In this document: positions 2,303-11,170 of the stretch, piece after piece | How positions within the stretch are numbered: the stretch's first letter is position 1 | Layout: every line of letters begins with the position of its first letter | From: Bacteroidales bacterium | GTDB lineage: Bacteria; Bacteroidota; Bacteroidia; Bacteroidales; Tenuifilaceae | Reading direction: 5' to 3' | NCBI GenBank assembly: GCA_008933525.1 | Contig: WBUV01000066.1 | Location: forward strand, 1-11,170 | Length of the DNA stretch: 11,170 nt | Position numbers and translations under genes: made by a program | The notes under the pieces: generated by a model | Databases searched by the model: none | What the model was told of the DNA's origin: nothing | What the model saw: only the letters and a program-made list of their open reading frames with translations

Positions 2303-2710
2303 TTACGCGTTAATTTCGAAAAACTTAAATGGGACTTGAGCCATATCGGAAAGTTCTTCCCCAGCCTCACGCAACTCGTCATCATCTTTATCGTAATACC
2401 AATTTATATTAATAGGAAGTCCTTCCTTCTGCATATCGTTCAATAAAATTACTATATCGTATAAAAACTTAGCCGAAGATGAGTTGAAATAGATAAATTT
2501 AAAATCAAAGTTAACTGGATCAATAGATTTGCCTGTTTTTTTTGACTCTATAAGGGTTTTCCTAAATTCATCGAGCCAATTAATAATTGGGAAATAGAAA
2601 TCTCTAACGTTTTCGGGGCGTGAGTATCCAGCTAATATATACGTTCCTAAACTTGTATCAAAGTTTACGAATGGAGAAACATTGGTTTGTTCAATCTTGA
2701 GCGGATTCAT
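2303..2710 (-). CDS. SiaC-family regulatory phosphoprotein (DUF1987), paralogue A
   Basis: This 135-residue cytosolic protein belongs to the SiaC family (formerly DUF1987). In Pseudomonas aeruginosa SiaC is phosphorylated by SiaB, dephosphorylated by SiaA, and in its free form binds and activates a partner enzyme. Marks seen here: the N-terminal SPFVNFDTSLG, the SRPENVRDFYFPIINWL segment (residues 30-46), the phosphosite motif YFNSSSAK (74-81) and the acidic WYYDKDDDE stretch. The residue aligned with SiaC Thr68 is Ser77. A loop before the phosphosite strand (about residues 51-65) is some nine residues longer than in the paralogue at 10308. It is the last gene of the operon, 30 nt after the other SiaC gene. 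Family call strong; its partner is unknown. Confidence 0.9.
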   Translation of the reverse strand: MNPLKIEQTNVSPFVNFDTSLGTYILAGYSRPENVRDFYFPIINWLDEFRKTLIESKKTGKSIDPVNFDFKFIYFNSSSAKFLYDIVILLNDMQKEGLPININWYYDKDDDELREAGEELSDMAQVPFKFFEINA

Positions 2711-2740
2711 AGAATCTTTATGTTGATTTTAAACCTATAT

Positions 2741-3151
2741 TTAAGAATTTGGCGAAATTGGGATAAAGTTAAAAGTGTATCCTATCATATCGGAAATTTC
2801 TTCTCCCGATTCAAATATCTCATCATCATCTTCATCGTAAAACCAATTTATTTCTACGACATTTCCTTTGGAGTGAAACTTCATAAACTCAAGAAGTATA
2901 TCCAACAAAAACTTAGAAGAAGCGGAATTAAAGTAAGTCATCTTAAGGTTTACAACAAGATTACTCTTGCTGAATTCAGTATTATTACTGAGAACAATCT
3001 CATTATAATCTTCTAACCACTTTAAAATGGGCTTGTAGAATCCAACCACATTCTCAGGGCGCGAAAAACCTGAGATTTCAAATACCGAATTCACTGGATC
3101 TAGCAAGACTCTTGGAGTAAATTCGCTGGGCTCTATATACAATGGTTCCAT
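2741..3151 (-). CDS. SiaC-family regulatory phosphoprotein (DUF1987), paralogue B
   Basis: A second SiaC-family protein, 136 residues, directly after the kinase gene (5 nt gap), which fits translation from the same message. It keeps the family architecture: FTPRVLLDP near the N-terminus, SRPENVVGFYKPILKWL (residues 30-46), the phosphosite motif YFNSASSK (73-80) and WFYDEDDDEIFESGEEISDM. The residue aligned with Pseudomonas SiaC Thr68 is Ser76. It shares the longer loop before the phosphosite with paralogue A and reads as its tandem duplicate, yet the two differ widely outside the core motifs, so the duplication is not recent. Being next to the SiaB-type gene it is the most likely direct substrate of that kinase; this is inference from position. 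Confidence 0.9.
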   Translation of the reverse strand: MEPLYIEPSEFTPRVLLDPVNSVFEISGFSRPENVVGFYKPILKWLEDYNEIVLSNNTEFSKSNLVVNLKMTYFNSASSKFLLDILLEFMKFHSKGNVVEINWFYDEDDDEIFESGEEISDMIGYTFNFIPISPNS

Positions 3152-3156
3152 AACTT

Positions 3157-3675
3157 TTAAAGTTGTTGTGTGTTATGTAAAACCTTTATTTTCAAAGTAA
3201 AATAAGAATGATTATTGTCAACATCCTCAAAAGTGTAATCAAGCTTGTTTTCAGTAACTTTTGCAATGTTAACAATTCCTAAGCCTGCTCCACCTTTCTG
3301 TGAAACATTCCCGCTTAAGATGATTTCCTTATAGTAATCCTTTAACCCATTCTTATCCAGCATATTCACCTTATCCAATCGTTCCTTTAACGAAGGGGTT
3401 TTTCCCTTAGTAATGGAATTAGAAGCCGTTAAGCATATGTATTTTTCGTCGAGTTGGAGGCTAAATTTTGGCAAATAGTTTAAGTTTCCATCTATAACAT
3501 CTTGATGCTTATAAATATTCTCCAAACTCTCAACCATGGCAGCATATACCTTCTTTTTTACAGTAATGCCAAAAGCATACCGATCAAGTATTGCTGTCAT
3601 TTTATTTAGCAAATAACCTATCTCCTCATAGGAGAGCGGTCCGTAATGGCTAATTAATACTTCCTTTTTTTCCAC
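3157..3675 (-). CDS. SiaB-family protein kinase (GHKL fold, DUF6272)
   Basis: This 172-residue protein matches SiaB-family kinases, small proteins with a histidine-kinase-like ATP-binding fold that phosphorylate SiaC on serine or threonine. Visible marks are an N-box-like ESLENIYKH (E49, N53 to H57) and a glycine-rich loop KGGAGLGIVNIAK (127-139), followed by a closing strand YFTLKIKV. The usual DxGxG of sensor kinases is not seen; CLTASNSI (81-88) occupies that place. There is no membrane or sensor domain, so input must come from a partner. The start is a GTG at 3675, since no ATG occurs until residue 26 and conserved sequence begins before that. The first codons overlap, in another frame, the end of a possible membrane peptide. 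Two SiaC genes follow directly. Family call confident, activity inferred. Confidence 0.85.
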   Translation of the reverse strand: MEKKEVLISHYGPLSYEEIGYLLNKMTAILDRYAFGITVKKKVYAAMVESLENIYKHQDVIDGNLNYLPKFSLQLDEKYICLTASNSITKGKTPSLKERLDKVNMLDKNGLKDYYKEIILSGNVSQKGGAGLGIVNIAKVTENKLDYTFEDVDNNHSYFTLKIKVLHNTQQL

Positions 3676-3767
3676 GGGTACAATTCGTAATTTGGTACCA
3701 AATTAAAAAATCCTATTGGAATTAGAGCAAAAATTACAAAAAAAAAGATTGCCAACAGTTCTTTCAT
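3654..3767 (-). CDS. Possible 37-residue single-span membrane peptide overlapping the siaB-like start
   Basis: An ATG at 3767 opens a 37-codon frame ending TAA at 3654. It begins MKELLAIFFFVIFALIPIGF, one clear hydrophobic span (about residues 4-24), then a polar tail ending in the basic PWKKRKY. Its last 22 nt overlap the first codons of the SiaB-like gene in another frame, an arrangement common in coupled bacterial genes. It sits alone between the kinase gene and the terminator of the peptidase gene, so it would be first in the operon. I recognise no family. The hydrophobic run depends partly on A/T-rich homopolymers, so chance is possible; the sensible topology and overlap favour a real gene. 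A membrane anchor or signal-input peptide for the kinase is speculation. Confidence 0.4.
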   Translation of the reverse strand: MKELLAIFFFVIFALIPIGFFNLVPNYELYPWKKRKY

Positions 3768-3816
3768 CTATTAAATAGTGCAATTTATAAGGGTATTTTG
3801 ATGAACGATTATTTCC

Positions 3817-3828
3817 TGTTCACGAACA
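3817..3828. promoter_or_regulatory. Short inverted repeat upstream of the siaB-siaC operon (possible operator)
   Basis: TGTTC-AC-GAACA is a 5-bp inverted repeat with a 2-nt spacer, about 50 nt upstream of the first ATG of the minus-strand operon. A partial extra half-site (TGAAC) lies just on its operon side, near 3802. No perfect TAnnTTTG element is seen in 3768-3858 on the minus strand. A short match such as this can arise by chance. Confidence 0.2.
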
Positions 3829-3859
3829 TGCCAAATTGAGTACATGAATATTTATAAAG

Positions 3860-3884
3860 AAAGGGGGAATTTTGTTCCCCCTTT
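3860..3884 (-). terminator. Terminator of the S46 peptidase gene
   Basis: AAAGGGGGAA and TTCCCCCTTT form a perfect 10-bp stem around a 5-nt TTTTG loop, 20 nt beyond the peptidase stop codon. On the minus strand the stem is followed by T-rich sequence (TTTCTTTATAA when read outward). On the plus strand the 3' arm also runs into a T6 tract, so it could act in both directions. Confidence 0.85.
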
Positions 3885-3903
3885 TTTAAAAAGTAGATAA
3901 GAA

Positions 3904-6054
3904 TTACTCTACAATTTTCATTTCATCAATTAAACGAGTAGCGCCTGCATATTTATCAATTATGAAAAGCACATAGCGAATATCCACATTGATAGTCCGT
4001 TGGAGATTCTTCTCAAAAACGATATCGCCGCTCATTGCTTCCCAGTTACCATCGAATGCTAATCCAATAAGTTCACCATTGGCATTCATAATTGGACTTC
4101 CAGAGTTACCACCTGTGATATCGTTGGTGGAAATAAATGCCAATGGCATTTTCCCATTCTCGGCATAGCGACCATAATCTTTCGCATTATAAAGATCCTT
4201 AAGTTTTTGAGGAACTACAAACTCCCAGTTATCAGGATCTTCTTTTTCCATAACTCCGTCGAGGGTGGTTATGTAATCGTAGTGTACTGCATCCATTGGA
4301 ATGTAATCTAGCACTTCGCCATAGGTTAAGCGCATAGTAAAGTTAGCGTCAGGATACATTGCTTTACCTTGGTTCATCTCTAGAACTCCAGCAATGAACA
4401 ATCTTTGTCCACGTTGTAATTTCTGATTTAGAGGATCCATTTTTGCAAAAATCTCCTCGGCTTTTACATTTATTGATCTTGCTGCAATATAAGCGGGGTC
4501 TTTTTCCAAAGCCTTAAGGGTTGGCTTTGCAAGAAATGCATATAGTTTAGATGAGTCAACAAAAATTGATTTGCTGTACATCTCGTCAATAAATTTATCG
4601 AAATCGCCTTTATACTTGGTTCTAATTGTGTTAAAGATGTCTGGCTGATTTTGCAAAGGAACATTCTCTGCAAAAATTCTAAACATTGCTTTAGCAACTT
4701 TCTGATCGGTAGGAGCGTTGTAGTTTTTATAGAAGTTTACCGATCTGTTTTTAAGCATCGATACCAATTTGTCAATATCTTCTTTTTTTCCTGATTTTAA
4801 TGGTTCGTAAAGCTGAGCTCCAGAACTAGCTATACCAATTAATTCTGTTCCCCCAAAAAGCGATTCATTAATGTACTGCGACACATGAAGCAGTTCCTTA
4901 CGACCAGTAACAGCCTCGTTAATTAGGTTAAGTGCATCGCCATATTTTTTTACCCTTTCAGGATCTGCGTTTACCCATTTTGCGAACTCGTCCTCATTTG
5001 CTTTTTTATAGTCATAAACTTTCAAACGCTTAAGGGCTTTGTTCATTCCAATTGAGTTTTTCCAGTAGTTGCTAGAGCCTGCATATTTTGATGCATACTT
5101 AATGTTAACAGCTTTGTCGGCTTGCATATCTTTAAGAAGAATTTCCTGACGGATTCCTCTAACATATATTCTGCTAGCATTGCTAATCTTCATTCGCTCA
5201 TCAACCTCGCTCGATGTCATGTAACGTTGTGTGCTACCAGGGTATCCCATAATCATGGTGAAATCACCTTTCTTTACTCCTTTAATAGAAACTGGGAGAT
5301 GATGTTTGGGTTTATAGGGAACATTCTCTGTTGAATATGCAGCAGGTTTGTTGTCTTTGCTTGCATAAACACGGAAAACTGAGAAGTCGCCAGTATGACG
5401 AGGCCACATCCAGTTATCGGTATCGGCACCAAATTTACCAATTGATGAAGGAGGTGCTCCAACCATACGAACGTCGGTAAATTCTTCATAAACTAAAAGG
5501 AAGAATTGGTTACCACCAAAGAAACTTTGAACACGACCTCTATAGCCTGTTCCATCAGTAGCTTCTTTTGAAATTTTGCGACCTACCTCTGCAATGGTTT
5601 TGTTTCTATCGCCTTCACTCATGTCTGAGTTAAGAGCTGCATTTACTTTTTCAGTTACATCCTCAATTCGAACCAAGAATGTAGCAGTTAATCCTGGAGT
5701 TGGAATTTCTTCTTGAATTGTTTTTGCCCAAAAACCATCGGCAAGGTAGTCGTGCTCCGGAGTACTATGTTGTTGAATAGCACCATATCCGCAGTGGTGA
5801 TTAGTAAGAATTAAGCCTTGCTCCGATACTATTTCACCGGTACAACCTCTTCCAAAAATAATGATAGCATCTTTAATACTCGAGTTATTTACGTTGTAAA
5901 TATCCTCTGCAGTAAGTTTGAACCCTTTTTGTTGCATTGCATCAATGTTCAACTGCTTTAGCAACGGTAATAGCCACATTCCCTCATCGGCTTTGGCTAT
6001 AGTGCCGAACACGAAGAAAAACCCGGCAACTAGAACTAGCAAACGTTTTTTCAT
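3904..6054 (-). CDS. S46-family dipeptidyl-peptidase, DPP7-type specificity
   Basis: A 716-residue exported serine exopeptidase that removes dipeptides from the N-terminus of oligopeptides, typical of peptide-feeding Bacteroidota. The N-terminus is a clear signal peptide (basic MKKR, hydrophobic core, AKA cleavage site after residue 22), which points to the periplasm. The triad reads as His87 in TNHHC, Asp223 in PRHTGDFSVFRVY and Ser651 in GGNSGSP; Cys71 and Cys88 match the usual trypsin-fold disulfide. Eighteen residues after the serine lies Gly669. This position is glycine in DPP7 (hydrophobic P1 residues) and arginine in DPP11 (Asp/Glu), so I favour a DPP7-like enzyme. Length fits the family (about 700-720). 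It follows the ribonuclease HII gene by 53 nt but has its own likely promoter and terminator. Confidence 0.95.
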   Translation of the reverse strand: MKKRLLVLVAGFFFVFGTIAKADEGMWLLPLLKQLNIDAMQQKGFKLTAEDIYNVNNSSIKDAIIIFGRGCTGEIVSEQGLILTNHHCGYGAIQQHSTPEHDYLADGFWAKTIQEEIPTPGLTATFLVRIEDVTEKVNAALNSDMSEGDRNKTIAEVGRKISKEATDGTGYRGRVQSFFGGNQFFLLVYEEFTDVRMVGAPPSSIGKFGADTDNWMWPRHTGDFSVFRVYASKDNKPAAYSTENVPYKPKHHLPVSIKGVKKGDFTMIMGYPGSTQRYMTSSEVDERMKISNASRIYVRGIRQEILLKDMQADKAVNIKYASKYAGSSNYWKNSIGMNKALKRLKVYDYKKANEDEFAKWVNADPERVKKYGDALNLINEAVTGRKELLHVSQYINESLFGGTELIGIASSGAQLYEPLKSGKKEDIDKLVSMLKNRSVNFYKNYNAPTDQKVAKAMFRIFAENVPLQNQPDIFNTIRTKYKGDFDKFIDEMYSKSIFVDSSKLYAFLAKPTLKALEKDPAYIAARSINVKAEEIFAKMDPLNQKLQRGQRLFIAGVLEMNQGKAMYPDANFTMRLTYGEVLDYIPMDAVHYDYITTLDGVMEKEDPDNWEFVVPQKLKDLYNAKDYGRYAENGKMPLAFISTNDITGGNSGSPIMNANGELIGLAFDGNWEAMSGDIVFEKNLQRTINVDIRYVLFIIDKYAGATRLIDEMKIVE

Positions 6055-6094
6055 TTTTATTCTTTTAGGTTAAGTAATTATTTTGATGATTCGA

Positions 6095-6124
6095 CAAATT
6101 AACACTATTATGGTTTAATATCAA
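6095..6124 (-). promoter_or_regulatory. Possible promoter of the S46 peptidase gene
   Basis: On the minus strand, TTG is followed after 19 nt by TTAATTTG, one mismatch from the Bacteroidota -7 consensus TAnnTTTG and with accepted spacing. It overlaps the 3' end of the ribonuclease HII gene and would give a leader of roughly 35-40 nt before the peptidase ATG. This would let the peptidase be expressed apart from the housekeeping gene upstream. Confidence 0.35.
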
Positions 6125-6725
6125 GCTGTAATTTAAGTTGAGTATCGTTATTTAACAGTCGATATGTTAAGCGGTGATAGGGTGTAACCCCAAATTTTCT
6201 TATAGCATCGCGATGCGATTTGGTTGGATAGCCCATGTTTTCGTTCCATTTGTATTGAGGAAATTCCTGATGAATTCTATCCATAAACTCGTCGCGGTAG
6301 GTTTTTGCTAAAATAGACGCTGCAGCAATACTTTGATAAATTGCATCGCCATGAATTACACATGTATGCTGAATACCCGCAAAAGGTTTAAACCTATTTC
6401 CATCAACTAAAAGATGCTGGGGCTTAACTTTAGTTAACCCTGCTACAGCTTTTTGCATCGCTAAAATTGAAGCGTTTAGAATATTAATCTTGTCAATCTC
6501 TGTATTATCAACACTTGCAACCGCCCAGTCAAGCGCAGAATTTTGAATGATCTCCCGAACCTCAACTCTACGCTTGGCAGAAATTTGCTTGGAATCGTTA
6601 ATCAACGGGCAATCAAAGTCTGAAGGAAGTATTACTGCTGCAGCAAAAACTGGGCCCGCAAGGCATCCTCTTCCTGCCTCATCGCAACCAGCCTCAGTTC
6701 TACCTTCAATGCAAAATGTTTTCAT
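6108..6725 (-). CDS. rnhB: Ribonuclease HII
   Basis: A 205-residue ribonuclease HII, which cuts the RNA strand of RNA-DNA hybrids and starts removal of single ribonucleotides misincorporated in DNA. It acts in the cytosol with divalent metal. All four acidic metal ligands are in place: Asp15 and Glu16 in CDEAGRG, Asp108 in LLVDGNRF and Asp127 in [17 protein letters not shown]. The GRG loop that reads the RNA-DNA junction and the later [15 protein letters not shown] helix are also present. Length is normal. The ATG at 6725 is the natural start, a short distance before the AGCDEAGRG motif. It lies 131 nt after the glycosyltransferase gene on the same strand; the gap holds no perfect promoter element that I can see, so read-through from upstream is possible. 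Confidence 0.97.
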
Positions 6726-6856
6726 CCAAACAGAACACTTAGTTAATTATCTGTGTATTAAATTTCATTTCAATAATAATGGAGAAAATGGAGCACCTAT
6801 ATTTTGTTCACTTACGTTTGAGATTAACCTTATCATGGGTGTTTCATAATTCGAGG

Positions 6857-7981
6857 TTACTCCAAACACTTTAATATACTTTCGTAAAGTTTTGCGGCAG
6901 CAATATCCCAGCTGAATTTTTCGCGCTGAACTCGTCCATTTGCAGTTAAGCGATTTCTTAACTCATTCGAGTTAAAGAGTTGAACCATAGAGTCGGCAAT
7001 TGATTGCACATTTGCAGGATCGAAATAAATTGCAGCATCGCCAGCAACTTCGGGCATCGATGTAGTGTTTGAGACGGCAAGAGGAATGTCGCACTTCATT
7101 GCCTCCAAAATTGGTATTCCGAATCCCTCAAAGTGCGATGGATAAATCATTGCTAACGAAGCGCCAACGATATCTCTAAGGCCCTCCACCTCTCTCCGAC
7201 CTGCAAAGATAATGTCGTGCTTAAACCGACTCTGTTCATAAGCCCGACTAATTTCACTTGTTTTAAACATTGGCTCACCAACCAAAACTAGCTTTACAGC
7301 CGTTTGCACCTGTTCGCGAAATACAGCGTAAGCCTCAATTAGGCTTCCAACATTCTTTCGGGGATTAAATGCGCCCACAAAAACAAAATAAGGTTCACTG
7401 CTTGAAATCTCCACTCTTACATTTGATATTTCGGTCTGAGTTAATGGCCTAAAAACATCACTTGCTCCATTATAAACTACATCTATCTTATCCTCTTTAA
7501 TACCATAACTCTCAACAATACTTTTTTTGGATGACTGGCTGACAGTAACTATTCGAGTAGCTTTTGCCGCAAACTTTGGGAAAAAATGGTTTAAATACCA
7601 TGATGTTAGAAACGGTAAACCCTGAGGGTTGTAATGAAAGTTTATATCGTGAATTACAGCCAATTGCGGGATTTTTGATTTTAGCGAGATATAACCATCG
7701 TTCGACACAAATACATCAATACTATTATTTTTGATGAACCGATATACCGACCATTCGAACCAAATATACCAAAGAAACGGATGTCTGGACTGAGGGCGTA
7801 ATACAATTGGTGTAATATTATCCGAGAAAATGAAACTCTTATCGTACGGTCTATCAAAAATAAAAAAAAACTGATGTTCGGGGTGTTGCTGGGTAATTCG
7901 CAAAAAGTTTTCGAAGGTAAACCATCCAATCCCCTCTAGTTTCCCCTTTAAAAGTAGTCGTGTGTTTACAGCTATTCGCAT
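6857..7981 (-). CDS. Glycosyltransferase family 4 (GT-B fold)
   Basis: A 374-residue family 4 glycosyltransferase, retaining GT-B fold, which transfers a sugar from a nucleotide-sugar donor during assembly of a surface polysaccharide or similar glycan. The N-terminal half carries LAVIHDINFHYNPQGLPF, typical of mannosyltransferase-like acceptor domains. The C-terminal donor domain opens with VFVGAFNPRKNVGSLIEAY and holds the EX7E motif as E285 and E293 (EGFGIPILE), followed by AVSNTTSMPEVAGDAAIYFDP. There is no signal peptide or membrane span, so it acts on the cytosolic face. It is divergent from a Wzx-like flippase gene 215 nt away, and the two are a natural pair for making and exporting a lipid-linked glycan. 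The sugar and acceptor cannot be named from sequence. Confidence 0.92.
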   Translation of the reverse strand: MRIAVNTRLLLKGKLEGIGWFTFENFLRITQQHPEHQFFFIFDRPYDKSFIFSDNITPIVLRPQSRHPFLWYIWFEWSVYRFIKNNSIDVFVSNDGYISLKSKIPQLAVIHDINFHYNPQGLPFLTSWYLNHFFPKFAAKATRIVTVSQSSKKSIVESYGIKEDKIDVVYNGASDVFRPLTQTEISNVRVEISSSEPYFVFVGAFNPRKNVGSLIEAYAVFREQVQTAVKLVLVGEPMFKTSEISRAYEQSRFKHDIIFAGRREVEGLRDIVGASLAMIYPSHFEGFGIPILEAMKCDIPLAVSNTTSMPEVAGDAAIYFDPANVQSIADSMVQLFNSNELRNRLTANGRVQREKFSWDIAAAKLYESILKCLE

Positions 7982-8169
7982 TAAAAAAATTTTAGAGCTA
8001 ATTACAGAATTTTTCGTTCAATTTGCAAAATTTGAAAATGTGTAGGGTACGAACAGTACAATTAAACCGATAAACATCAATCCATAGAATAAATGCTTCA
8101 AAAAAAACTTTTTTTAAACCAATTTTTGTTTTTTTAAAGCTAACATGGCGGACTAATTTTAAATTTCTG

Positions 8170-8177
8170 TAGGTTTG
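8170..8177 (+). promoter_or_regulatory. Possible -7 element of the flippase gene
   Basis: TAGGTTTG is an exact match to the Bacteroidota -7 consensus TAnnTTTG, 19 nt before the GTG start of the flippase gene. No good TTG is found at the usual distance upstream. The rest of the 7982-8196 intergenic stretch is A/T-rich with poly-A and poly-T runs and holds nothing else I can name. Confidence 0.4.
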
Positions 8178-8196
8178 AGTAATTATATACATTAAG

Positions 8197-9648
8197 GTGA
8201 AAAGAGTTTTTACAACGAACCTCCTTCTTTTATTATTACTAAATATCCTGATTAAACCATTTTGGATATTTGGCATTGACAGAAGTGTGCAAAACTTACT
8301 GGGTGCAGGAGAATACGGGATGTTTTATACTCTTTTTAACTTCTCACTCCTACTTAACATTCTACTAGATTTAGGTATTACCAATTTTAACAACAGAGAG
8401 ATTAGTCGATACCCACAACTAATCGGTAAGTATTTTTCAAATATTGTTGGAATAAAAATTTTTCTGGCCTTAGGGTATGCCCTAATTACTATACTTATGG
8501 CCTTAAGCTTAGGCTATAACAACCGCCAAATAAGTCTTCTACTTTTACTCGTTTTCAATCAATTCTTATCATCCTTAATACTTTACCTTCGATCGAACCT
8601 GAACGGATTACATTTTTTTAAGCTCGATAGTGTACTATCAGTACTAGACAAAACATTGATGATTTTAATATGTAGCATTCTACTCTGGTCAAACATCTTT
8701 AGATACGATTTTACTATCGAGTATTTTGTTTTAGCACAAACAATCTCCTATGTTGCAACTGCAATAATTGCATTTATAATAGTAATAGGTAAAACTGGGT
8801 CAATTTCGTTCAAATTTGAACTACCGTTTTCTTTATCGATGCTAAGGAGTAGTTTCCCTTACGCAATGCTCGTATTGCTAATGACTGTTTATAGTCGAGT
8901 AGATTCGGTTGTTATCGAAAGAATTCTTCCAAACGGTGATGTTGCTGCTGGAATTTATGCCCAAGCATTCCGTTTAATTGACGCTGCAAACATGTTTCCT
9001 TTCCTATTTGCCAGCCTACTCCTTCCAATTTTCTCCAGAATGATTAAAAATAGCACTAAGATCTGCTCCTTTGTTGGTTTTTCGCTAGTGCTTCTTTTGG
9101 TTCCTGTCGTGTCCTTTTCCATTCCAACATTCGCATTCCGAGGACACATTATGGATATACTATACCACGAGCATGCAGTTTATTCCTCAGATATTTTGGG
9201 AGTGCTAATGGGCTCCTTCATTTTTATTGCTATGGGGTATGTTTTTGGAACACTGCTAACCGCAAAGGGTGAACTTAAAACGCTTAATTACATTTCGTTT
9301 GCAGCGGTTGTTCTAGGGATTAGTGTACAGCTTTTCCTTGTTAAGAGGTTTGGAATTTTAGGTGCAGCATATGGCAATCTAATTACAAATGGATTTGTTG
9401 CATCGCTCTCGATATGGTTTTCCATTAAGCTTTTCCAGTTCAACTTGGCAAAAAAATTTGCGATCAGATTTATTTCCTTTGCAATCACATCGATTGCCAT
9501 AACAGCATTGCTTTGTTATATCGATGATAAATCAAGCATAAATTACATAATTGCATTATTCCTAAGCTTTATATCGGCGTTTATATTTAAGTTGATAAAC
9601 TACAAAGAGCTGATCTCATTCTTCTCAAAGGAAACTTCGTTAAAATAA
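8197..9648 (+). CDS. Wzx-like oligosaccharide flippase (polysaccharide biosynthesis protein)
   Basis: A 483-residue inner-membrane protein with about 12-14 hydrophobic segments spread over its whole length, as in the MATE/MOP-type polysaccharide exporters that flip lipid-linked oligosaccharides across the membrane. The N-terminus (LLLNILIKPFWIFGIDRSVQ, residues 12-31) and the following VQNLLGAGEYGMFYTLF are the usual opening of Bacteroidota flippases of this kind. A later SMLRSSFPYAMLVLLMTVYSR segment begins the second half, with a charged R/D pair (SRVDSVV) as in relatives. The start is a GTG at 8197: an in-frame TGA lies at 8176 and the first ATG would remove the conserved first helix. It is divergent from the GT4 gene. 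Substrate unknown; family call secure. Confidence 0.92.
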   Translation: MKRVFTTNLLLLLLLNILIKPFWIFGIDRSVQNLLGAGEYGMFYTLFNFSLLLNILLDLGITNFNNREISRYPQLIGKYFSNIVGIKIFLALGYALITILMALSLGYNNRQISLLLLLVFNQFLSSLILYLRSNLNGLHFFKLDSVLSVLDKTLMILICSILLWSNIFRYDFTIEYFVLAQTISYVATAIIAFIIVIGKTGSISFKFELPFSLSMLRSSFPYAMLVLLMTVYSRVDSVVIERILPNGDVAAGIYAQAFRLIDAANMFPFLFASLLLPIFSRMIKNSTKICSFVGFSLVLLLVPVVSFSIPTFAFRGHIMDILYHEHAVYSSDILGVLMGSFIFIAMGYVFGTLLTAKGELKTLNYISFAAVVLGISVQLFLVKRFGILGAAYGNLITNGFVASLSIWFSIKLFQFNLAKKFAIRFISFAITSIAITALLCYIDDKSSINYIIALFLSFISAFIFKLINYKELISFFSKETSLK

Positions 9649-9681
9649 ATTTTTCTACAATTCGTAACCTTAAAATATGAA

Positions 9682-9707
9682 TTGATAAAAAAATATCGAT
9701 AATTTTG
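9682..9707 (+). promoter_or_regulatory. Likely promoter of the second SiaC gene pair
   Basis: TAATTTTG at 9700-9707 matches the TAnnTTTG -7 consensus exactly, and a TTG lies at 9682-9684, a little closer (15 nt) than the usual 17-23. Transcription would begin near 9712, leaving a leader of about 45 nt before the ATG at 9759. It gives the two SiaC genes transcription independent of the flippase and argues against any translation start at 9705. Confidence 0.5.
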
Positions 9708-9758
9708 AATATTTGGCAGCGAAGTAATATCTTTAAACAATTAACAAACAATATTTTC

Positions 9759-10268
9759 ATGGGGATTCTTTTAGATAAAACAACCGATTGCCCTTATATA
9801 AACTTTACGGAGGATGGTTTTCTTGAAATTGAAGGTCGCTCTATTACTGAGGATCCATTTTCGTTTTGGCAACCACTTCTGGAATGGGTTGAGAACTATA
9901 CACACCACGCTGCCCCAAAAACTCATGTTAATATATATTTAGAGTACTCCAACAGCAGTTCGAATAAATACATCAACGAGTTGCTTCGCAAATTGGAAGA
10001 CTCCCACGGCAAAAATACCGAAGTTATTGTTAACTGGAGATTCGAAGAGGATGATGAATCGGTGCTTCAGCTCGGCAAGGATTTTGAGTCGATGTTAAAA
10101 CTGCCCTTTAACTTCGAAGAGCTTGAAACAGAAAAGGAACGAACCCGACGAATCAAGATTAAAAACAAAAAAAGCGGAAATGAAGCAATAATTACCGCAC
10201 GATACTGGGATGCCATTGTTAGAAATGGACATGGCGAGGATTACCAAATTTTACAAGAATTTTCTTAA
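9759..10268 (+). CDS. SiaC-family regulatory phosphoprotein with C-terminal extension, paralogue C
   Basis: A 169-residue SiaC-family protein. The core (residues 1-121) follows the family: CPYINFTEDGFLEIEGRSI near the N-terminus, FWQPLLEWVENY, the phosphosite motif YSNSSSNK (63-70; Ser66 aligns with Pseudomonas SiaC Thr68) and NWRFEEDDE. It departs from the others in carrying Asn70-flanked NSSSNK instead of xSSxK with Ala or Ser, an EDPF segment where the others have PENV, and a C-terminal extension of about 48 residues: a basic linker (ERTRRIKIKNKKSG) then ITARYWDAIVRNGHGEDYQI. I chose the ATG at 9759 because family homology starts there and the longer frame would begin inside the promoter. 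The extension's role is unknown; an added docking module is a guess. Confidence 0.85.
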   Translation: MGILLDKTTDCPYINFTEDGFLEIEGRSITEDPFSFWQPLLEWVENYTHHAAPKTHVNIYLEYSNSSSNKYINELLRKLEDSHGKNTEVIVNWRFEEDDESVLQLGKDFESMLKLPFNFEELETEKERTRRIKIKNKKSGNEAIITARYWDAIVRNGHGEDYQILQEFS

Positions 10269-10307
10269 TATAATTTTTTTTTGCATATTTGTTTAAAATT
10301 GGCTTAA

Positions 10308-10697
10308 ATGGTAAAGTTTGAATTAAAAGAAACAGCAACCACCCCTTTTATTAACTTCGATCATACTATCGGGGTTATAAAAATGGAAGGTCGATCGATT
10401 CCCGAGAATGTGATTGACTTCTACCAGCCAATTCTTCGCTGGATTGATGAGTATGCACAAAATCCACTCCCAGAAACCTTGGTACATATGAAGTTTGAAT
10501 ACTTCAACACAAGTTCTTCAAAAAGAATTTTCGATATAATGAAAAAACTTGAGAAAATGGCCATTGACACTGGAACCAAAGTTACCATAAATTGGTACTT
10601 TGAGGAGGATGATGAAGATATCTATTTTGCATGCAACGACTATAAAGCACTAATTAACAAGGTTGAGTTCAACCTCATAGAGCTCAAACAAAACTAA
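10308..10697 (+). CDS. SiaC-family regulatory phosphoprotein (DUF1987), paralogue D
   Basis: A 129-residue SiaC-family protein and the most canonical of the four in the window. It has TTPFINFDHTIG, the full EGRSIPENVIDFYQPILRWIDEY segment (split here by position, residues 27-49), the phosphosite motif YFNTSSSK (65-72) and INWYFEEDDEDI. Thr68 falls at the same residue number and motif place as the phosphorylated Thr68 of Pseudomonas aeruginosa SiaC, while the other three copies have serine. It starts 39 nt after the preceding SiaC gene with no promoter element between them, so they are probably co-transcribed. A hairpin terminator follows. The nearest recognisable kinase gene is the SiaB-like one about 6.6 kb away. 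Confidence 0.92.
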   Translation: MVKFELKETATTPFINFDHTIGVIKMEGRSIPENVIDFYQPILRWIDEYAQNPLPETLVHMKFEYFNTSSSKRIFDIMKKLEKMAIDTGTKVTINWYFEEDDEDIYFACNDYKALINKVEFNLIELKQN

Positions 10698-10718
10698 ATA
10701 ATCTATAACAATCAGAAA

Positions 10719-10740
10719 AAAAGCACCTTTGGGTGCTTTT
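10719..10740. terminator. Bidirectional terminator between the SiaC pair and the GAF protein gene
   Basis: AAAAGCACC and GGTGCTTTT form a perfect 9-bp stem around a TTTG loop. The plus-strand side runs out into TTTTCTT and the minus-strand side into a T-run (the complement of seven A's), so it can end both convergent units. It lies 21 nt after one stop codon and 17 nt from the other. Confidence 0.9.
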
Positions 10741-10757
10741 CTTATTGCTGATGCTCT

Positions 10758-11170
10758 CTAATTCCGGTGAACAGTTTCGTTCCTTAACATTTCGTACTGC
10801 TCCCGGATAATCTCTAACTCCTCCAAGTTCTGACGCATACGCTCCTCGTTTTCCTGCATTTGCCTTGAGCTCTCCTTAAATTGATTAATCAATTTAATAT
10901 TTTGCTCATTCATCACCACATTGTGGATATTGTTAGCAACATTGTAGGCTACTTTTTCAACTAAATCTATTTCGGCCTGTGATAATGCATTAAAACTAGC
11001 CAACTCAACTACTCCTAATACCTGATTATCGAAGGTTAGCGGAGTTAATAATAAATTCTTTGGAGCAGCGCTTCCCAATCCTGAGTTAATTCTAAAATAA
11101 TCGTCGGGGATATCGGTAATTAACTGAATCTGATTTAATGTGTAGGCTGCCCCAACCAATCCGCTATCGG
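10758..11170 (-). CDS. GAF domain protein with C-terminal coiled coil, C-terminal part (5' end outside window)
   Basis: About 136 C-terminal residues of a larger protein; the frame is open through the right edge, so the TTG near 11159 is not the start. The first part is the second half of a GAF domain of the kind found in Bacteroidota sensor proteins: GLVGAAYTLNQIQLITDIP, then DYFRINSGLGSAAPKNLLL and VLGVVELASF, followed by the closing helix AEIDLVEKVAYNVANNI. A long Glu/Gln/Arg-rich helix follows (QMQENEERMRQNLEELEIIREQYE is its core region), very likely a coiled coil, with no catalytic domain after it. Such proteins often have N-terminal membrane or HAMP segments, which cannot be seen here. 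It converges on the SiaC pair. A sensory or scaffold role for that pathway is inference. Confidence 0.85.
   Translation of the reverse strand, partial: DSGLVGAAYTLNQIQLITDIPDDYFRINSGLGSAAPKNLLLTPLTFDNQVLGVVELASFNALSQAEIDLVEKVAYNVANNIHNVVMNEQNIKLINQFKESSRQMQENEERMRQNLEELEIIREQYEMLRNETVHRN

Follow-up and report, generated by a model that had tools for sequence, protein, structure and literature searches.

The DNA analysed here, called the window throughout, is a Bacteroidales stretch of 11,170 nucleotides (contig WBUV01000066.1, assembly GCA_008933525.1). It comprises the entire contig C202 of a metagenome-assembled genome (MAG; 3.39 Mb, 85% complete), the family of which is probably Tenuifilaceae, judging by a SiaC3 protein of 88% identity that bears this family name and by Perlabentimonas. 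The window carries four genes for SiaC-family phospho-adaptors and one for a SiaB-family kinase. The reference system for these proteins is SiaABCD of Pseudomonas aeruginosa (PDB 6kko, 6k4f and 7e6g), comprising the kinase SiaB, the PP2C phosphatase SiaA, the adaptor SiaC and the diguanylate cyclase SiaD. The window probably belongs to a SiaABC-type partner-switching network that extends across the family and does without SiaD.

SiaC1 (2303–2710) and SiaC2 (2741–3151) are encoded on the minus strand together with the kinase gene (3157–3675, minus), which has a GTG start. SiaC3 (9759–10268) and SiaC4 (10308–10697) are located on the plus strand. The adaptors match PF09345 with 108, 111, 112 and 131 bits respectively (cut-off 24.5 bits), the value for SiaC3 being that of the open reading frame (ORF) from 9705. 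This frame (9705–10268, plus) opens with TTG, and the ATG at 9759 is the likelier start. The kinase scores 95.5 bits against PF19788/DUF6272 (cut-off 26.6 bits) and 99.4 bits against NF038262, ‘SiaB family protein kinase’ (cut-off 85 bits). The Pseudomonas SiaB and SiaC of 6kko are the top PDB matches of the window kinase (E = 1.5e-5) and SiaC (E = 3.4e-11 for SiaC4). STAS (PF01740) was not reported for any of the four window adaptors in a Pfam scan at E values up to 1. The four SiaC genes and the SiaB-type kinase described in an earlier sequence-only reading of the window are therefore present at those positions. SiaC3 has a C-terminal tail (window 10140–10268), conserved with the motif YWDAIxRNGH, that is not found in the other three.

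The four paralogues belong to a much larger set. In the genome from which the window derives there are 14 SiaC matches, two of which are fragments at the ends of contigs, along with four SiaB matches and 23 SpoIIE matches in 22 reading frames; no GGDEF match was found in this 85% complete MAG. Each family genome searched (27 of 27, own included) contains 11–21 SiaC, 3–10 SiaB and 13–38 SpoIIE/PP2C domain matches. SiaB matches are domain counts, and some frames contain two. At the median there are 3.0 SiaC matches per SiaB match in the family (range 1.1–4.3), compared with 1.3 (0.75–2.2) in the 12 SiaC-bearing genomes from elsewhere in the order. GGDEF is absent from all 60 relatives searched, including the window's own genome and two one-contig genomes, while the control was positive in eight of 14 known genomes. 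SiaC and SiaB occur in an identical 39 of these 60 relatives, all of which have at least four SpoIIE matches; the 21 that are free of SiaC have two at most. In a draw from the phylum, SiaC was found in at least 22 of 395 genomes, own included, the others having at least one to four copies; at most 11 candidates were scored per genome, so these are lower bounds.

Since no GGDEF enzyme was found in the family, the adaptors probably control something other than SiaD. This agrees with the sequence-only reading, which proposed a branched partner-switching network with undescribed targets. Its observation that the window lacks GGDEF also stands (none was reported in the Pfam scan of the ten window proteins) and extends to the genome. 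It noted too that no SpoIIE phosphatase is seen in the window; this is correct, as there is no match, but does not hold for the genome, as the search it suggested for SiaA-like PP2C and GGDEF genes shows.

SiaC of P. aeruginosa is phosphorylated at T68 (PMC8457831) by the SiaB kinase (PMC7647112). By alignment, the equivalent residues of SiaC1 to SiaC4 are Ser, Ser, Ser and Thr, lying within YFNSSSAK in SiaC1, YFNSASSK in SiaC2 and YFNTSSSK in SiaC4. Each is invariant among distinct orthologue rows, window included (SiaC1 16/16, SiaC2 19/19, SiaC3 18/18, SiaC4 19/19), and a phosphorylatable Ser or Thr is present in 41 of 44 SiaC rows from three genomes (G000, G002 and G017). The window kinase retains the N-box (E49..N53) and the GGAGLG box in alignments. 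The proportion of non-synonymous differences (pN) is 0.03–0.11 for the four SiaC genes with synonymous sites near saturation, indicating constraint; because of this saturation the ratio dN/dS could not be computed for most genes. Protein identity to G002, a one-contig genome of the window's genus, is 83–96% for the four SiaC proteins (SiaC4 96%) and 90% for SiaB. For the neighbouring flippase, GT4 glycosyltransferase, RNase HII and S46 peptidase it is 66, 69, 76 and 83%.

By comparison with the Pseudomonas proteins, SiaB would phosphorylate SiaC, blocking its target-binding face. Sensor phosphatases analogous to SiaA would strip the phosphate upon their signal, and free SiaC would then bind and switch a partner. 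From the gene counts, kinases would be shared among adaptors. G002 and G017, a one-contig genome from another genus of the same family, have 16 SiaC and five SiaB each, and with kinases thus outnumbered sharing is likely. Four of the 16 adaptors in G002 sit with a SiaB gene (SiaC1, SiaC2 and those of modules C288 and C47); the other 12 do not, and must be phosphorylated in trans if all are substrates. Two SiaB genes of G002 have no adjoining SiaC. The window kinase would most likely serve SiaC2 and SiaC1, which belong to its own gene run; SiaC3 and SiaC4, located behind the flippase gene, would be secondary substrates at most.

The two SiaC pairs of the window form the ends of a divergent block that is seen in four genera. 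The order SiaC4–SiaC3–flippase, divergent from GT4–RNase HII–S46–SiaB–SiaC2–SiaC1, occurs in the window, in G001 and G002, and in genomes g4, g5 and g7. A polysaccharide flippase-type membrane protein is encoded next upstream of SiaC3 (8197–9648, plus; PF01943, 69 bits), and divergent from it is the GT4 glycosyltransferase gene (6857–7981, minus; PF00534, 103 bits). Two syntenic neighbours follow, RNase HII (6108–6725, minus; assigned by eye from its sequence and by synteny) and a Dpp7-like S46 peptidase (3904–6054, minus; PF10459, 878 bits; NF053519, 892.8 bits, below the cut-off of 1200). SiaC2 lies directly after SiaB in all 15 loci of the SiaB–SiaC2 locus set. SiaC1 follows SiaC2 in 12 of them; L104 ends at this point, and L112 and L113 have no SiaC1. 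In the second set, of 18 loci, 15 bear SiaC3, which is adjoined by SiaC4 in all 15 and by the flippase gene in 14 (the exception being G009). The two sets are drawn partly from the same contigs. A few genes lie outside the ORF calls: SiaC4 of L126 came to light through a profile or coordinates alone, as did the SiaC genes of L092, L141 and L148.

The two arms of the block are apart in G017 and its genus. In G017 the kinase remains with the first pair, and the second pair is 2.2 Mb away along the contig or, should the 3.2-Mb contig be a closed circle, about 1 Mb in the shorter direction. No SiaB gene was found within 200 kb of this second pair. In G009, SiaC1 is located alone on another contig (L121). 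Three sites in the G002 genome (L072:4086-5027, L075:13176-14117 and L084:8015-8956) carry a 313-residue ORF, perhaps a transposase, whose N-terminal sequence is shared by all three; one copy stands between the S46 and SiaB genes of G002, and is absent from the window. The SiaB–SiaC block, with a 70% identical SiaB, is also present in L102, a record titled Rikenella microfusus, a name that looks doubtful.

Tandem pairing of the genes might mean that each pair is a unit, with SiaC1/SiaC2 and SiaC3/SiaC4 forming heterodimers or a 2+2 complex, giving two switches rather than four. This is unlikely on balance, though a serious possibility. The adjacency of SiaC3 and SiaC4 in every SiaC3-bearing locus, and of SiaC1 and SiaC2 in most of theirs, is in its favour, as is the SiaC–SiaD complex, in which four SiaC monomers are bound as two dimers (PMC8457831). 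It does not explain the SiaC2 genes of L112 and L113 or the solitary SiaC1 of G009, and in G002 nine of the 16 orthogroups lie outside tandem arrangements.

A local hub, in which the single SiaB of the window phosphorylates all four adaptors of the block for four different targets, is rather doubtful. Both pairs share one block in four genera with no SiaB nearer to the second pair in the loci read, and most SiaC genes of G002 have no kinase beside them. Against this, the block is split in G017 with kinase and second pair far apart, four other SiaB genes in each of G002 and G017 could serve that pair, and the tree places SiaC3 and SiaC4 apart from SiaC1 and SiaC2. The sequence-only reading had suggested that one kinase may control several SiaC adaptors. 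The general part of this suggestion, the sharing of kinases, is likely, but the loss of linkage in G017 and the additional kinases speak against control of these four by the window kinase. A separate SiaB serving the second pair, which it named as an alternative, is not found beside that pair in either one-contig genome, G002 or G017, and the comparison of gene order that it called for reveals the divergent block and its splitting in the genus of G017.

In the preferred reading, a shared network without SiaD, the targets would be proteins other than SiaD. Tree and synteny define 16 one-to-one SiaC orthogroups between G002 and G017, and the neighbours common to both genomes vary from orthogroup to orthogroup. 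C288 is accompanied by a TerB-ABC-2 exporter, a GAF-PAS SpoIIE protein and CheB, and C47 by an ABC protein paralogous to that of C288 (48% identical). C505 lies with a histidine kinase and response regulator (sequences read by eye), and with a GH16-match protein in G017. C503 has a molybdopterin oxidoreductase and an Fe-S/DmsC-like protein, C50 a SpoIIE protein (with TPR repeats by reading of the sequence) and OmpA, and C403 VTC and DUF4956 proteins. C150 is next to a gene for an ECF-type sigma factor and has Gly at the phosphosite; such adaptors, encoded downstream of a sigma-factor gene, are found at L021:2037-2444, L077:7113-7520 and L098:7313-7723. The gene names RNR and Lpx were given by reading the sequences rather than by a scan for those proteins.

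The best conserved of these sister modules is C288 (own genome), where the linked partner, a candidate target, is the TerB-ABC-2 exporter. Besides the own genome, the SpoIIE–SiaB–SiaC–ABC module was seen in two further families of the order (G054 and G032) and in a different order of the same class (G108 and G205). In G108 and G205, which have one SiaC match each, the order is CheB–GAF protein–SpoIIE–SiaB–SiaC–ABC–lipoprotein-like. The CheB-GAF-SpoIIE-SiaB-SiaC-TerB/ABC-lipoprotein module, whose conservation reaches beyond the order, was observed at L017, L076, L085, L132, L134, L142 and L143, and a second, paralogous SiaB–SiaC/ABC module at L015, L084 and L095. For SiaC3 and SiaC4 the best guess, made with low confidence, is a function in envelope or polysaccharide export.

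The SpoIIE phosphatases are a candidate source of signal input. A domain scan covered 21 of the 22 own SpoIIE frames, omitting the one on contig C165. Among the 25 of 36 families listed, sensor-like modules comprise the two-component-propeller (7/21 frames), Y_Y_Y (7/21) and TPR families (8/21), with GAF, PAS, CHASE4 and HAMP each in one frame. Propeller sensors (Reg_prop, Y_Y_Y) thus occur in the own genome with a SpoIIE phosphatase as output and not a histidine kinase, for example at L030:7462-10767. Such phosphatases could instead act on RsbV-like STAS proteins, leaving the SiaC set as a side branch with few phosphatases. STAS and RsbW-like HATPase_c_2 genes do exist in the family. Nevertheless this explanation is improbable: each family genome has just 1–5 STAS matches against its 13–38 for SpoIIE, so that SiaC offers the larger pool of possible substrates; high SpoIIE numbers are confined to SiaC-bearing genomes; and SpoIIE genes are next to SiaB in C288 and next to SiaC in C50. 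STAS proteins were accordingly rejected as the main SpoIIE substrates. HATPase_c_2 has 4–16 matches per family genome; among the matches listed most frames are of histidine-kinase length, and small RsbW-like frames are few.

It is very improbable that the SiaC genes are redundant or decaying duplicates, or phosphate sinks that have no targets. The Gly phosphosite of C150 would suit such a role, but 16 one-to-one orthogroups have been kept between two genera, and SiaC4 is 96% identical to its G002 counterpart compared with 66% for the adjacent flippase.

Other families of the order and phylum provide 20 further SiaC loci. A TerB-ABC relative adjoins SiaC in eight of these (L132–L135, L137, L142, L143 and L149), and a protein with a helical stalk of about 80 residues in nine (L138–L141, L145–L147, L150 and L151); three (L136, L144 and L148) have neither. 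The stalk is fused to GGDEF (L139 and L140), to a histidine kinase (L138, and L141 by reading) or to SpoIIE (L151). In L145 it has an apparent membrane segment by reading, the domain scan assigning no family, and in L146, L147 and L150 it stands alone. The two motifs by which SiaD binds SiaC in 7e6g both align with the stalk motif [ILMV][SG]DxxQ, but the profile match is weak (E = 0.17) and chains of DNA gyrase A reach similar scores against the stalk profile (E of 0.11 and up). In SiaD, Ser82, Asp83 and Gln86 of the motif contact T68 of SiaC and its neighbours (PMC8457831). The stalk is likely to be a portable SiaC-docking module. Single-protein fusions of response regulator, SpoIIE phosphatase and SiaB-type kinase were also seen in these loci (L145:10162-12039 and L147:7919-9640).

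A search with the stalk profile through about 0.94 Mb of family DNA around SiaC, SiaB or SpoIIE genes, some stretches of which overlap, yielded nothing credible (best E values 0.045 and 0.11, in L087 and L021). The strict motif ISDxxQ was searched in ORFs of part of this sequence, excluding L114–L131, and occurs once in 199,139 residues compared with 1.65 expected by shuffling; the nearest SiaC is seven genes away. With no credible match by either profile or motif, SiaD-type docking through family proteins encoded near SiaC was rejected. SiaC residue 31, a contact of SiaD, is Tyr or Phe in eight of nine stalk-linked SiaC proteins, two of the 11 others and none of the 44 of the family, a pattern in line with a different target, although descent confounds it. 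Two points favour a standard SiaABCD system with its SiaD overlooked: the 85% completeness of the MAG, and the stalk–GGDEF proteins that neighbour SiaC in remote members of the phylum (L139, L140). It is largely refuted and hardly credible, since GGDEF had no match in the own genome or the other relatives while the control was positive, and the family loci searched gave no credible stalk or docking motif; the dedicated SiaD-like cyclase that the sequence-only reading had envisaged as an alternative was not found.

Several points weigh against the SiaD-free network. Scores with the NCBIfam equivalog models fall below the cut-offs, SiaC1–4 reaching 70–79 bits with the SiaC model NF038265 (cut-off 150) and the window kinase 43.6 bits with the SiaB model NF038264 (cut-off 225). 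No SpoIIE match is present within the block in the window, G001 (L130) or G002 (L075). C150 has Gly at the phosphosite in all three rows, from three genomes, which places this adaptor outside the scheme. Part of the SpoIIE complement may be taken up by STAS and RsbW-like genes. The pairing of kinases with adaptors is unreadable from sequence, and no biochemistry for any of these proteins was found in the literature searched. SpoIIE is likewise absent from the loci read in g4, g5 and g7. It does lie on the same stretch as SiaB–SiaC in G017, four relatives of its genus and G009; with 13–38 SpoIIE per family genome this may be chance proximity.

The family network resembles SiaABCD in its SiaC and SiaB families, the YxN[TS] loop, the N-box and G-box of the kinase and a PP2C encoded in the genome. 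It differs in the absence of GGDEF, in having 16 SiaC (G002 and G017) where Pseudomonas has one, in fewer kinases than adaptors and in many sensor phosphatases; further differences are the scores below cut-off with the equivalog models and the lack of an aromatic residue 31. SiaA-type PP2C genes are not located beside siaBC in the window, L075 or L130, and are adjacent in C288. In the SpoIIAA/SpoIIAB/SpoIIE and RsbV/RsbW/RsbU systems a GHKL kinase and a PP2C phosphatase act on a phospho-adaptor that binds its partner when unphosphorylated. The working principle here would be the same, but the adaptor is SiaC rather than STAS by Pfam, and no sigma factor emerged as the target. HsbA/HsbD and BgrV/BgrR are partner-switched diguanylate cyclases (PMC8457831). 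As in those systems, adaptor phosphorylation would gate an output, but they use STAS adaptors and GGDEF outputs, neither of which is used here.

The remaining features of the window concern its transcription and its right end. A consensus scan placed a terminator-like hairpin in the gap between the S46 peptidase and SiaB (3864–3881, minus), which suggests that SiaB–SiaC2–SiaC1 is a separate transcript, and another, on both strands, between SiaC4 and the GAF gene (10716–10743). In all, 14 terminator-like sites were found compared with 7.7 expected. A Bacteroidales-type consensus promoter pattern had no matches for 0.73 expected, and sigma-70-like sites numbered 31 compared with 34.8 in shuffles. 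The GAF gene (10758–11168, minus; PF13185, 42 bits) is cut by the contig end, leaving the C-terminal part. A full-length relative in G002 (L075:4209-6221) is a 670-residue 7TMR-DISM and GAF protein, and the product is probably a 7TMR-DISM/GAF membrane sensor that has no recognised output domain. Its position beside the second pair, noted in the sequence-only reading, is real, but as a component of the switch it was rejected: in the loci read the adjacency occurs only in the window's genus, the genes are convergent and the hairpin lies between them. The gene is probably outside the switch.

In PMC7647112 and PMC8457831 SiaD is the one worked-out target of SiaC, and DUF1987 is described as widespread, with members suggested to modulate adjacent proteins (PMC8457831). 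A literature search that covered few subscription papers returned no report of a SiaC expansion or a GGDEF-free form, no mention of DUF6272, DUF1987 in PMC8457831 only, and nothing for ‘partner-switching’ with SpoIIE and Bacteroidetes. The retention and multiplication of SiaABC in a family in which no diguanylate cyclase was found suggests a switch that can be uncoupled from cyclic di-GMP (c-di-GMP) signalling. Tentatively, SiaC may be a general phospho-gated adaptor, with about 16 anciently separate SiaC proteins, about five kinases and about 20 sensor phosphatases forming a signalling bus that stands in for c-di-GMP and switches many outputs, among them an ABC exporter and polysaccharide export; in other members of the phylum, cyclases, histidine kinases or phosphatases would carry a portable SiaC-docking helix. 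The analysis supplies testable partner candidates, the TerB-ABC exporter and the docking-stalk proteins, and the family offers a natural case for studying how sixteen related adaptors are kept distinct by shared kinases and numerous sensor phosphatases.

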